From: Rhizobiaceae bacterium
GTDB lineage: Bacteria; Pseudomonadota; Alphaproteobacteria; Rhizobiales; Rhizobiaceae
Length of the DNA: 64,000 bases
Direction of reading: 5' to 3'
Assembly: GCA_019635775.1 (NCBI GenBank)
Contig: JAHBYU010000001.1
Span: 744,001-808,000 of the forward strand
Positions 18,551 through 35,283 of this stretch are shown here, one piece after another. Made by a program: the position numbers and the translations under genes. The notes under the pieces are model-generated. The model was given only the letters and a program-made list of their open reading frames with translations, had not been told where the DNA came from and searched no databases. Every line of letters starts with the position of its first letter. Position 1 is the stretch's first letter.

Positions 18551-18730
18551 CCGTGCCCCTCTGTCTGAAGCCTGAGAGACTCGCGCAACCGGAACCCTGT
18601 CGGCGGCGCTTACACCTTCGGCGCGGGGTTTCCCCCGACTTTCCAGAGCGTCCTTCCCGTCTACGGTTCTTTTGCCTGAGAGATTTCGGGCGATTTCCCC
18701 TTCGGCGGCAGCAGTTGCTGCTCTCTCCCG
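18551..18730 (-). promoter_or_regulatory. Tandem glycine riboswitch (two aptamers)
   Basis: Read on the minus strand, the leader of gcvT contains two glycine aptamers in series. Aptamer 1 (about 18730 to 18640) starts CGGGAGAG, has GCCGAAGG and ATCTCTCAGGCAAAAG, then GACGCTCTGG. Aptamer 2 (about 18639 to 18551) has GCCGAAGGTGTAAG, GTCTCTCAGGCTTC and ACAGAGGGG. These are the conserved cores of the class, joined by a short linker. It lies 45 bases before the gcvT start. In known cases glycine binding turns on gcv expression. No obvious intrinsic terminator follows, so control may act at translation initiation. Confidence 0.95.
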
Positions 18731-18937
18731 CAAACAGATGGGCGAAACCATGCCCCGGACGGCAACACGCATAGCCGATCCAAAAAGCCTTGTCACCTGT
18801 CCACGGGATGGCCGTACATGGGTTGCGAAAGGATTCGCTAACCAATCCCCTTTGCGGTTCCTAAAAACTGTCCTGCTACCTTGGGTCATCGTCTGAGCTG
18901 CCGGAAGCAATCCGGCGCGGCCGAAGGGGGCAAGGGC

Positions 18938-31347: not shown

Positions 31348-32763
31348 CTACTCAGCCGCTTCCGTGAGGCGGGGAAGGTTGAGCCATGTGCGGCAATCCT
31401 CGAGCGCTCGCGCGGTGATCGCGCGGCGTTTGGCAATCGTCTTTTCCTTGCCACGCAGGCGCTTGCCTTCGGGTTTCACCGCTTCGGCGGGCGGGAAAAG
31501 TCCGAAATTGATGTTCATGGGCTGGAACGAACGTTTGCCCGGCTCGTCGTCCGAGACGATGTGGCCGCCAGTGATGTGGCCGAGCAGCGCACCGAAAGCG
31601 GTGGTCGCCGGTGGCAGGCAAACACTCTGGTCGAGCCGTTCCGCGGCTGCGAAGCGACCGGCCAGAAGGCCAATTGCGGCGGATTCGACATAGCCTTCGC
31701 AACCGGTGATCTGCCCGGCAAAACGCAAGCCCGGCCGTGATTTCAGCTGGAGCGAGCCGTCCAGAAGCGTCGGCGAATTGATGTAGGTGTTACGGTGCAG
31801 GCCGCCGAGGCGGGCGAATTCGGCGTTTTCGAGACCCGGGATCGTTCGGAAGATGCGGACCTGTTCGGCATGCTTCAGCTTTGTCTGGAAGCCGACCATG
31901 TTGTAGAGCGTACCGAGCGCATTGTCCTGCCGAAGCTGGACGACAGCATAGGCCTTGACCGTCGGGTTGTGCGCATTGGTCAAGCCCATCGGCTTCATCG
32001 GGCCGTGACGCAGCGTTTCGGGCCCACGCTCCGACATAACCTCGATGGGCAGGCAGCCGTCGAAATATGGGGTGCCCTCCCATTCCTTGAATTCGGTCTT
32101 CTGGCCATCGATCAGCGCGGCGACGAAGGCGTCATATTGCGCCTTGTCCATCGGACAGTTGATGTAGTCCTTGCCTGTGCCTCCGGGACCAACCTTGTCA
32201 TATCGTGACTGGAACCAGGCGACATCCATGTCGATCGTATCGAAATGGATAATCGGCGCGATCGCATCGAAGAAGGCGAGGGCATCCGATCCGGTTTCCG
32301 CCGCGATTGCCTGCGCCAGCGAAGGGGCAGTCAAAGGGCCGGTGGCAATAATCGACTGGTCCCACTGCGCCGGCGGGAGTCCGGGCACTTCCTCCCGCAC
32401 GATGGTTATGAGCGGATTGGCTTCGAGCTTTGCCGTCACTGCGGCGGAAAAGCCGTCTCGATCAACCGCAAGCGCGCCGCCGGCCGGAACCTGGTTGGCA
32501 TCGCCGGAATCCATGATCACAGATCCGGCGAGCCGCATCTCCGCGTGGAGAAGACCAACAGCGTTGTTTTCCGCGTCATCGGAGCGGAACGAGTTGGAGC
32601 AGACGAGTTCCGCCAACCCTTCCGTCTTGTGCGCCTCGGTGCCGCGAACGGGTCGCATCTCGTGCAAAATCACTGGAACGCCGGCCGTCGCGATCTGCCA
32701 AGCTGCTTCCGAGCCGGCGAGACCGCCGCCGATGACATGAATGGGTGCTATGCTTGTGTTCAT
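31348..32763 (-). CDS. trmFO: Methylenetetrahydrofolate-tRNA-(uracil-5-)-methyltransferase
   Basis: A 471-residue FAD/folate-dependent enzyme forming 5-methyluridine at position 54 of tRNA. It has the N-terminal FAD motif [14 protein letters not shown], then [38 protein letters not shown]-like [12 protein letters not shown], and [40 protein letters not shown] near the C-terminal part. Full length. It converges on the squalene/phytoene-synthase-like gene with no spacer (stops are adjacent at 31345-31350). Confidence 0.96.
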
Positions 32764-32818: not shown

Positions 32819-33460
32819 ATGTCTCATCAGCACAATAGGACACGCACGATCGTTGGACAGATAACCGTCGGGCTGGCGGTTCTGGCACTGTTTGCAGGAT
32901 ACGTGTTCACTGTGTCCCTGTCGTGGATATCTACTGCTAGCGCGGCCACGCCTGCGACGAAGCCGAAAACAATACAGATCTGTCACGGTTACGGGTGCGC
33001 CTTCCGCTCCCGCCTGACGCTTACGGCGGCCGATGGCGCAAGATTTCGGTCGATAATGGCGGCCGGGTCCGGCTCCGCCCGCGCAGAGCGGGCGGCCTTG
33101 TCGCGCGCCGTCGTCTATTACGAAGGCCGTGCGGGTCAAGCCACCGGGTTCAAGGATCGGGCCAAGACCCAAGTCGGAAAGCCGGAGCGGGGCCAGATGG
33201 ACTGCGTCGACGAGGCGACGAATACACGCAACCTCCTTCTGTATCTGAAAGAGCGCGGATTGATCCGCTTCCACAAGGTGGAGCGGAATGTCTCGCGCGG
33301 CTATTTCCTGGACAAGCGCTATCCGCACTTTTCCGCGCTGATCAGCGAACCTTCCGGGACGAAGTGGGTGGTGGATTCCTGGTACAAGCCGATGGGCGGC
33401 GCGCCGGACATCATGCCTTACGACCAATGGAAAGTGCGCGGGCAGCTCGGGACAGAATAG
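32819..33460 (+). CDS. Exported transglutaminase-like protein, unknown function
   Basis: A 213-residue protein with an N-terminal signal or anchor helix (about 13-43, ending STASAATPAT) and a periplasmic domain. Conserved-looking features are ICHGYGC (about 53-59), QMDCVDEATNTRNLLLYL (about 127-144) and HFSALISEPSGTKWVVDSWYKPMGG (about 174-198). The Cys in DCVDEATN followed by a His segment and an Asp in VVDSWY is reminiscent of a Cys-His-Asp transglutaminase-like arrangement, but that is my inference. Similar proteins are widespread unknowns in alphaproteobacteria. No clear Shine-Dalgarno sequence precedes the ATG. Confidence 0.7.
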   Translation: MSHQHNRTRTIVGQITVGLAVLALFAGYVFTVSLSWISTASAATPATKPKTIQICHGYGCAFRSRLTLTAADGARFRSIMAAGSGSARAERAALSRAVVYYEGRAGQATGFKDRAKTQVGKPERGQMDCVDEATNTRNLLLYLKERGLIRFHKVERNVSRGYFLDKRYPHFSALISEPSGTKWVVDSWYKPMGGAPDIMPYDQWKVRGQLGTE

Positions 33461-33484
33461 TTCGTCCTAGCGCCAAGGCAGTCT

Positions 33485-33526
33485 GAAAAAGACAACACCC
33501 GCCGAGGGAGGAGGTTCGGCGGGTGT
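33485..33526 (-). terminator. Likely terminator of the DUF1127-hairpin transcript
   Basis: On the minus strand, the last and strongest hairpin (11-bp stem, 33526-33516 with 33505-33495) is followed after four bases by TTTTTC (33490-33485). This is the only hairpin of the array with a T-tract behind it, so the primary transcript probably ends here. Confidence 0.55.
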
Positions 33527-33598
33527 CGTTTTTGTGGACGGCTCCCCGGGAGGAGATGAGGAACCGGCCTATCCGTCATGGCCGGGGAGGAGGTCGGC
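33495..33598 (-). ncRNA. Anti-Shine-Dalgarno hairpin unit 2 (cuckoo/CcsR-like sRNA)
   Basis: Second of two homologous units downstream of the DUF1127 gene. In transcription order: hairpin d (33598-33581, stem GCCG/CGGC, loop with CCTCCTCCC), hairpin e (about 33565-33542, stem GGTTCC/GGAGCC including one G-U pair, loop TCTCCTCCC) and hairpin f (33526-33495, 11-bp stem ACACCCGCCGA/TCGGCGGGTGT, loop CCTCCTCCC). The loop is complementary to ribosome binding sites. The arrangement is that of the cuckoo RNA family, described as CcsR1-4 in Rhodobacter downstream of a DUF1127 gene. Expression is inferred. Confidence 0.75.
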
Positions 33599-33658
33599 GC
33601 TGACGAAATTCCTTTCGCCCGATTTTTGAGAAGGGGCGAAACCTTCTGTGGGGAACAA

Positions 33659-33760
33659 CGCCCGCCGAGGGAGGAGGTTCGGCGGGCGCCGTTTCGTTGG
33701 CCAGCAATCGGGAGGAGGTGAAAGCTGGCCTATTCGTCGGGGTCGGGGAGGAGGTCGACC
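33659..33760 (-). ncRNA. Anti-Shine-Dalgarno hairpin unit 1 (cuckoo/CcsR-like sRNA)
   Basis: First unit, 23 bases after the DUF1127 stop. Hairpin a (33760-33741, stem GGTCG/CGACC), hairpin b (33730-33699, stem GGCCAGC/GCTGGCC) and hairpin c (33688-33659, stem CGCCCGCCGA/TCGGCGGGCG) each expose CCTCCTCCC in the loop on the minus strand (GGGAGGAGG at 33746-33754, 33710-33718 and 33669-33677 on the plus strand). No T-tract follows hairpin c, so read-through into unit 2 and later processing is the likely route. Confidence 0.75.
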
Positions 33761-33782
33761 CTGGCGAAATCTATTGAATTCC

Positions 33783-33923
33783 TTAGATCGCCTTGCGGGC
33801 GACTTCGCGAATGCTTGCGCGGGCAATACCCAGATCGTTCAGCTCGCGGTTCGTCAGGCGGTTCAGCTCCGTCACGGTTTCGCGATAGAGGCGCCAGTTG
33901 CGATAGTTGCGGATCAGGTTCAT
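33783..33923 (-). CDS. DUF1127 small basic protein
   Basis: A 46-residue ORF, ATG at 33923, stop TAA at 33783. It begins MNLIRNYRNWRLYRETVTEL and ends ARASIREVARKAI, with NRLTNRELNDLGIAR in the middle, the full DUF1127 domain (RxLxxLsDReLxDIGI pattern). DUF1127 proteins are arginine-rich and include CcaF1 of Rhodobacter, an RNA-binding protein encoded upstream of CcsR sRNAs and acting on them. The same pairing here, with six hairpins directly downstream on the same strand, suggests a shared transcript and a partner role. The upstream 244-bp gap is comparatively AT-rich and should carry the promoter. Confidence 0.9.
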   Translation of the reverse strand: MNLIRNYRNWRLYRETVTELNRLTNRELNDLGIARASIREVARKAI

Positions 33924-34167
33924 GGTCTTTTCGAGTCGTCTTTGGTTCGTTCGTTTCTTTGGTACGCACTACAGATACGTATGGTCGGAACGGTTTAAAA
34001 GCGCATTTGGTGCATGGCAGCAATGCAATTTGTGCAATGCAGCAAAATCGATTAGGTAGCGGGACACAAATTCGACGGAATCACAAAAGCTCATTTGTTT
34101 CAATCGGTTGTAGGGTTTAAAACTGCTCTCGCTAAGGTTGGAGCGGTCGCTGCGGCGGGAGAAAGGT

Positions 34168-35283
34168 GTGGCGAGTTATTCCTCACGCGTGCGTGGTGAT
34201 GCGGCCAGGTGGGTGGAGCGGGGCTTCATTGACCAGAAGGCCGCGCAGGCAATCGTTGCCGATGCGGAGGCTCACGACCGCCGATCGCTGAGCTTTGGCT
34301 CCATTCTGGCGATCATGGCGGCGCTGCTGTTCGGTGCGGCGATCCTGATATTCGTGGCTGCAAACTGGGAAGCATTTCCGAGGCTTGGTCGCGTCGGCAT
34401 GCTGTTCGCGATCATCTTCGGCGGTTATGTCGGTGGCGCCGGGCTAAAGCTGGCGGACCATGCGGCCATCGGCGAAGCGCTCTGGCTCATCGCGGCCGCC
34501 GCATTTGGCGGGTCTATCGCGCTGATCAGCCAAATGTATCATCTGTCTGGTGACGAGGCGCAGGCCATCCTCATCTGGTGCGCCGGTACGACGCTTGCGG
34601 CGGCTGCGCTCAGGTCCGGGCCTCTGACAATGGCGGCGGTTGCGCTGTCGGCGGCTTGGCTTTTCCTCGTCGGCGTCAGCTTCTGGCGAAATGAAGATTT
34701 CCCACACCTTTTCATGGTGTTAGCGTTCGTGGTGTGGCTGCTCTCCTATTGGACGAGAAGCGCTGGCGCGCGACATTTGCTGCTGCTGTCGCTGGTCTTA
34801 TATGCAGCATTGCTTGCTGCAGAAACGGAAGTGATGCACGTCGCCCCCGTTCTGGCTGCAGTGTCGGCAATCCTCTTTGGCCTCGCGGTCTTTCTTCCCG
34901 AGGACACGGAGAGAATCGCCCGGATCGACGGCCTTCTGCCCGTCCATGGCCTGATCGGTTTCCTCACCGGGATGGTTATGCTCCAGATAGACATCGGAGA
35001 CGATTTTGCGGCGGGATTTGCAATTGCCGCGGCGATCACGCTTGCCGGCATTGTCGCTGCAGTTGTCTTTGGCGGGCGCGATAGCAGGGGGCTGCGCTGG
35101 ATCGCCTATACAGGCTTCGCGTTCGAGCTTTGCCTCATCTATGCGGTCATGATCCAGGGTATGCTGGGCACCGCTGGGTTCTTCCTGGCGGCCGGAACCA
35201 TTCTGGGTGTGCTGGCGATCGCGATCATACGGATCGAGAAGCGCATGGCAGCCCCCGCCTCTGCCTCGGGAGTCGTGTCATGA
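34168..35283 (+). CDS. DUF2157 membrane protein
   Basis: A 371-residue protein with a short soluble N-terminus (RWVERGFIDQKAAQAIVADAEAHD, the DUF2157 signature) and about ten membrane helices from residue 45, including GAAILIFVAANWEAFPRLGRV. Function unknown. The GTG at 34168 has a good ribosome binding site (GGGAGAAAGG) and is preferred over TTG at 34138. Overlaps the GDYXXLXY gene by 4 bp (ATGA). The pair DUF2157-GDYXXLXY is a recurrent gene neighbourhood. Confidence 0.85.
   Translation: MASYSSRVRGDAARWVERGFIDQKAAQAIVADAEAHDRRSLSFGSILAIMAALLFGAAILIFVAANWEAFPRLGRVGMLFAIIFGGYVGGAGLKLADHAAIGEALWLIAAAAFGGSIALISQMYHLSGDEAQAILIWCAGTTLAAAALRSGPLTMAAVALSAAWLFLVGVSFWRNEDFPHLFMVLAFVVWLLSYWTRSAGARHLLLLSLVLYAALLAAETEVMHVAPVLAAVSAILFGLAVFLPEDTERIARIDGLLPVHGLIGFLTGMVMLQIDIGDDFAAGFAIAAAITLAGIVAAVVFGGRDSRGLRWIAYTGFAFELCLIYAVMIQGMLGTAGFFLAAGTILGVLAIAIIRIEKRMAAPASASGVVS

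Follow-up and report, generated by a model that had tools for sequence, protein, structure and literature searches.

A DUF1127 gene followed by two tandem ar14 (NfeR1-type) RNA units in a Rhizobiaceae genome

On the minus strand of a 64,000-nucleotide stretch of a Rhizobiaceae genome (hereafter the window), a short DUF1127 gene is followed, within 33923-33485, by six hairpins with anti-Shine-Dalgarno (anti-SD) sequences in their loops. The six hairpins form two complete tandem copies of ar14, the family of the S. meliloti small RNA (sRNA) NfeR1; the stems of these units covary, and both the layout and a sequence upstream of the gene are conserved among relatives. The locus is likely to give one transcript, activated by a regulator of the LsrB/VtlR type, that carries DUF1127 together with two tandem NfeR1-type sRNAs blocking ribosome binding sites. 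Co-transcription, processing, regulator binding, target silencing and RNA binding by the DUF1127 protein are proposed for this organism by analogy with NfeR1 and with CcaF1 of Rhodobacter.

The DUF1127 gene and its hairpin array

The 46-residue open reading frame that the initial annotation had assigned to DUF1127 matches PF06568 at 49.1 bits, against a cut-off of 23.3. Its neighbours are a divergent gene for a DUF2157 membrane protein on the other side and, beyond the hairpins, a convergent gene whose 213-aa product has no match in Pfam or NCBIfam, next to which lies trmFO (Table 1). Elsewhere in the window, a glycine riboswitch aptamer (RF00504, 67.8 bits) is found at 18654-18740 of the minus strand.

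The motif CTCCTCCC occurs eight times in the 64-kb window, six of these on the minus strand within 33506-33753, compared with a mean of 2.85 and a largest count of 7 in 100 shuffles of the whole window. All six motifs of the array fall in loops of predicted hairpins, and the 301-nt stretch 33482-33782 has a predicted fold of -132.3 kcal/mol (z = -6.06) that none of 100 shuffles equalled. The previously described run of six same-strand hairpins after DUF1127 is therefore upheld, as is its division into five loops with CCTCCTCCC and one with TCTCCTCCC (33548-33556); the loop core left unpaired in the predicted fold is CCUCCUCCC in five hairpins and UCUCCUCCC in one. The T-tract noted at 33490-33486 is likewise present and, with the last hairpin of the second unit, likely constitutes an intrinsic terminator; a simple scan of 33400-34150, with a loop limit of 8 where the loops here have about 10, returned no minus-strand terminator.

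Table 1. Features of the locus, with occurrences of ar14 units behind phasin genes in other loci
Feature	Position	Strand	Basis
LsrB/VtlR-type box TGCACAAATTGCATTGCTGCCATGCA	34036-34011	minus	sequence match and recurrence in relatives
Predicted -10 element TATCTG	33972-33977	minus	CCTATCT-like consensus, inferred
DUF1127 small protein gene, 46 aa	33923-33783	minus	PF06568 match and relatives
ar14 unit 1, three anti-SD hairpins	33773-33653	minus	RF02344, 86 bits, model 1-123 of 123
Unit 1 loop motifs	33746-33754, 33710-33718, 33669-33677	minus	
Linker hairpin TTTCGCCC-N13-GGGCGAAA, without anti-SD motif	33641-33613	minus	fold
ar14 unit 2, three anti-SD hairpins	33611-33490	minus	RF02344, 84 bits, model 1-123 of 123
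Unit 2 loop motifs	33585-33593, 33548-33556, 33506-33514	minus	
Last hairpin of unit 2 with T-tract, likely intrinsic terminator	33486-33529	minus	sequence and fold
Divergent DUF2157 membrane protein gene	34138-35283	plus	other side of DUF1127 gene
Convergent 213-aa gene	32819-33460		beyond ar14 units
trmFO	31348-32763	minus	next after 213-aa gene
Phasin_2 gene followed by ar14 unit	L004:1024-1613; L152, L153, L154; L158, L159, L165, L172, L173, L175, L176		

A cmscan search identified the array as two full-length tandem copies of RF02344 (ar14), which score 86 and 84 bits where the family cut-off is 58.8. Identity with CcsR1 (RF02791) was rejected, since the cut-off of that model is 65.3 bits and the two units reach 35.1 and 28.2. 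The initial annotation had likened the locus to the CcaF1-CcsR locus of Rhodobacter; the likeness holds in so far as a DUF1127 gene is accompanied by anti-SD hairpin RNAs, but it does not extend to the units, which are ar14. The possession of three hairpins rather than two, which had been taken as a departure, is the ordinary form of such units, since they belong to the NfeR1 type and CcsR is excluded by its cut-off.

The two triplets are separated by a seventh hairpin that was absent from the earlier description. In relatives, the linker between neighbouring three-hairpin units folds at -5 kcal/mol or lower in 31 of 33 loci (raw energies without a shuffled control), and in many loci it reads TTTCGCC-loop-GGCGAAA or a variant thereof. 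That the linker hairpin plays a part in processing is a guess. Several Mesorhizobium loci have extra GGGCGAAA...TTTCGTCC palindromes added at the linker.

The genome as a whole contains four ar14 units above the cut-off, one further weak match at 37.6 bits, and five DUF1127 genes. At its second DUF1127 locus (L115:1495-1780) two anti-SD motifs lie 23 and 73 nt after the gene and are followed by a terminator-like sequence, and this locus has no Rfam match at the gathering level.

Covariation and conservation among relatives

Covariation was assessed in an alignment of 45 units of similarity below 0.83, drawn from 69 loci with 106 units, 101 of them distinct, among which one genome may stand under two identifiers from different collections. 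Changes on both sides are seen in 27 of the 29 pairs. Paired cells amount to 85.3%; shuffles give 67.7%, and sliding the partners gives no more than 46.9%, the latter control favouring the structure because the helices were derived from the alignment's own consensus fold (helices 3 and 4) and from the fold of window unit 2 (hairpin 1). The helices of hairpins 2 and 3 pair in 91.6% and 96.0% of cells and contain most of the covariation. Hairpin 1 is poorly aligned and was omitted by RNAalifold; its two helices, in a structure named by hand, pair in 61.4% and 67.0% of cells. Hairpin 1 is supported by an alignment-free swap test, in which the mean pairing score was 9.26 for own versus 4.93 for swapped partners (8.91 versus 5.28 for hairpin 2, and 13.41 versus 10.26 for hairpin 3), with L001, L002 and L116 left out as repeats of the window. 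Concerted evolution of hairpin 3 between units was considered and set aside: it looks plausible in the closest relatives of the window but does not hold generally, the two units differing in hairpin 3 in many Mesorhizobium loci.

The layout was followed in two sets of loci. The syntenic set was fetched through the 213-aa neighbour and consists of the best 80 of 106 confirmed loci, from related species, with one organism present twice (L053, L055). One of its records (L058) is titled Bacillus subtilis; it holds a relative of a gene otherwise found here in Hyphomicrobiales records and is perhaps mislabelled or from a mixed assembly. In 53 of these best 80 loci an anti-SD motif lies no more than 60 nt after a DUF1127 stop codon, the distance from the first base of the stop to the first motif being 21-33 nt in every case. 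One locus (L065) has DUF1127 without the motif, and a profile search found no DUF1127 in the remaining 26, two of which (L069, L071) end at a contig edge on the side concerned. A tandem pair of DUF1127 genes precedes the hairpins in 27 of the 80 (for example L008-L010, L012-L019, L021-L034, L059 and L068). The number of motifs varies with the genus: Mesorhizobium loci mostly have six (none in L011 and L020, nine in L026), Aminobacter loci four to nine, and Phyllobacterium loci mostly three (none in L035).

The second set comprises the 58 best-scoring loci fetched through ar14, with the window's own genome excluded. Here 40 loci have the motif no more than 100 nt behind a DUF1127 stop, and in 18 ar14 is without an adjacent DUF1127; trmFO lies in the flank of 31, and in 29 the pair occurs together with one or more of the three neighbour genes. 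The expectation that the loops and the DUF1127-plus-hairpin layout would recur in related genomes is borne out by both sets, the motif being kept wherever the locus is present. The association of DUF1127 with ar14 is conserved yet not obligatory, because 18 of the 58 ar14 loci and 26 of the 80 syntenic loci are without DUF1127. At E 0.001 or better, 32 of 41 close genomes contain ar14 (25 above the family cut-off), as do 103 of 297 genomes from across the order (55 above the cut-off); the window's own genome is counted in both, and none of 14 control genomes was matched. A run of four DUF1127 genes lies beside trmFO in a small, AT-rich genome from the same order (L110:881-2520), three of them with an anti-SD motif at 42-43 nt and the first without; the RF02344 matches of this genome are under the cut-off.

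Units of ar14 also stand behind phasin genes (PF09361), in all four examined genomes of the window's genus (its own, G001, G002 and G003) and, among 20 other ar14 loci chosen by hand, in 7; the distance from phasin stop to first motif was 28-99 nt in the ten measured. Among the papers listed by literature searches, none apparently describes this link. At two further loci (L171, L174), ar14 units lie 103-111 nt after a reading frame that by eye resembles a LacI-type regulator. It is conceivable, at somewhat less than even chances, that ar14 is a portable 3′ module, carried both by LsrB/VtlR-controlled DUF1127 transcripts (as one to three units with linker hairpins) and by phasin mRNAs. If true, the release of an RNA that blocks ribosome sites would be tied to two different physiological programmes, and the phasin link would connect the module with storage-polymer metabolism.

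The upstream box and the proposed transcript

The box upstream of DUF1127, away from the start of the sRNAs, contains TGCA-N6-GCAT exactly, which is the LsrB box of PMC10746234, and agrees in 13 of 15 letters with CAATGCAGCCATGCA, the Brucella VtlR motif of PMC12595884. Within the window the extended box pattern matches exactly at this site only, and the short pattern by itself occurs five times. Across 30 hand-picked, aligned upstream regions, TGCA-N6-GCAT-N-GCT-N4-TGCA is present in the majority of rows, with a CCTATCT-like element about 30 nt beyond the box. Frequencies were taken from 73 upstream regions: one from the window, 53 from the syntenic loci that possess the pair, and 19 from additional loci. 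Of the 25 additional loci tried, the remaining six had no DUF1127 gene with a motif up to 110 nt behind it. TGCA-N6-GCAT lies no more than 300 nt upstream in 60 of the 73 regions, counting the window, and in 39 of 1460 random 300-nt stretches; for the Brucella VtlR motif with up to three mismatches, the numbers are 45 of the 73 regions and 73 of the 1460 stretches. The random stretches were drawn from the same loci and may include the true box. The exact short pattern is missing from 13 of the 73 regions, among them L096, of the same genus, and L115, of the same genome.

The conserved upstream sequence suggests that a regulator of the LsrB/VtlR type switches the locus on. LsrB activates transcription of NfeR1 in S. 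meliloti (PMC10746234), three DUF1127 genes are under positive VtlR regulation in Brucella (PMC12595884), and atu1667 of Agrobacterium is directly activated by VtlR (PMC7486931). A candidate regulator is present in the window's own genome, where a LysR gene lies 93 nt before an ar15/AbcR RNA in an arrangement resembling the Brucella vtlR-abcR2 neighbourhood (PMC12595884); the gene has general LysR matches only, below cut-offs, and its LsrB/VtlR identity is putative. The LsrB box of NfeR1 stands 60-72 nt before the transcription start (PMC10746234), and by the same spacing transcription here would start near 33965, just past the predicted -10 element.

According to the proposed mechanism, the regulator would activate a single transcript with the two ar14 sRNAs in its 3′ part, after DUF1127. 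The precursor would probably be cut between gene and units and again between the units, releasing three-hairpin RNAs whose CCUCCUCCC loops would pair with the G-rich Shine-Dalgarno regions of many mRNAs and block their translation, and the DUF1127 protein may bind these RNAs or help to mature them in the manner of Rhodobacter CcaF1. The layout is compatible with co-transcription and RNase E processing as in CcaF1-CcsR. In relatives, activation by LsrB/VtlR is known for NfeR1 or AbcR sRNAs and for DUF1127 genes; a conserved operon joining DUF1127 and NfeR1-type units behind one LsrB/VtlR-type box would unite these observations, and would make the question of whether DUF1127 proteins bind RNA or protein directly testable on the adjacent RNAs.

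The two units might instead be independent sRNAs with promoters of their own, DUF1127 being a mere neighbour outside any common transcript. NfeR1 of S. meliloti does have its own sigma70 promoter (PMC10746234), and a DUF1127 gene with the motif behind it is missing from 18 of the 58 ar14 loci; but the gap of only 21-33 nt between DUF1127 stop and first motif in the 53 syntenic loci leaves little room for a separate ar14 promoter, and the conserved box sits upstream of DUF1127, so that this arrangement is considered unlikely. A sigma70-type scan of 33400-34150 found no promoter for either the single transcript or independent sRNAs. Still less probable is that the hairpins act mainly in cis, either as a 3′ UTR through which the DUF1127 message is stabilised or tuned, or as a sponge that binds ribosomes or RNA-binding proteins: they lie close behind the stop in relatives and a T-tract follows the last of them, but the loops are the best conserved part of ar14 units while the stems vary, ar14 units also occur without DUF1127 or behind phasin genes, and trans-silencing is the mode of action of NfeR1, a member of this family (PMC10746234).

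Comparison with known systems

The locus shares features with several described systems. As in ar14/NfeR1 (RF02344), each unit consists of three hairpins whose loops all carry the anti-SD motif, the 123-position model being matched end to end twice, and as in S. meliloti NfeR1 an LsrB-type box lies upstream of the presumed transcript; unlike NfeR1, there are two tandem units behind DUF1127, and the box is upstream of that gene. The three anti-SD loops of NfeR1 pair with the ribosome binding sites of mRNAs and silence them in a redundant manner (PMC10746234). The S. meliloti target ntrB, which is not a family criterion, is unsupported as a conserved target, there being no GGAGG before its start in the window's own genome, where AAAAGGCGGCAGC precedes the ATG (L150).

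CcaF1-CcsR1-4 of Rhodobacter sphaeroides shares the order of a DUF1127 gene and then several anti-SD sRNA units, whereas the units here have three hairpins and fall below the CcsR1 cut-off, and an LsrB/VtlR-type box is seen here, the promoter of the Rhodobacter locus being RpoHI/RpoHII (PMC10253847). CcaF1 is co-transcribed with CcsR and acts with RNase E in maturing the downstream CcsR RNAs (PMC10253847); the binding partner of DUF1127 proteins, RNA or protein, is a matter of dispute (PMC12501420). The small protein genes regulated by VtlR, namely the Brucella DUF1127 genes and atu1667 of Agrobacterium, are similar in their upstream motif.

Short DUF1127 genes with CcsR-like sRNAs are in print as the CIN1 locus (PMC10253847), and descriptions of three-hairpin anti-SD RNAs go back to 2011 or earlier. 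The locus shows the CIN1 arrangement, a short DUF1127 gene adjoining anti-SD hairpin sRNAs, and resembles the cuckoo RNA family (Reinkensmeier and Giegerich 2015) in placing DUF1127 beside CCUCCUCCC-loop hairpin RNAs, a likeness drawn from the descriptions in PMC10253847 and PMC10746234. Among the papers listed by the literature search, none contains both DUF1127 and a name of ar14/NfeR1; the search covered papers other than the cuckoo RNA study of 2015, in which the two may be joined. The type of locus is already known, and what is added here is the upstream box, the linker hairpin and the ar14 units behind phasin genes.
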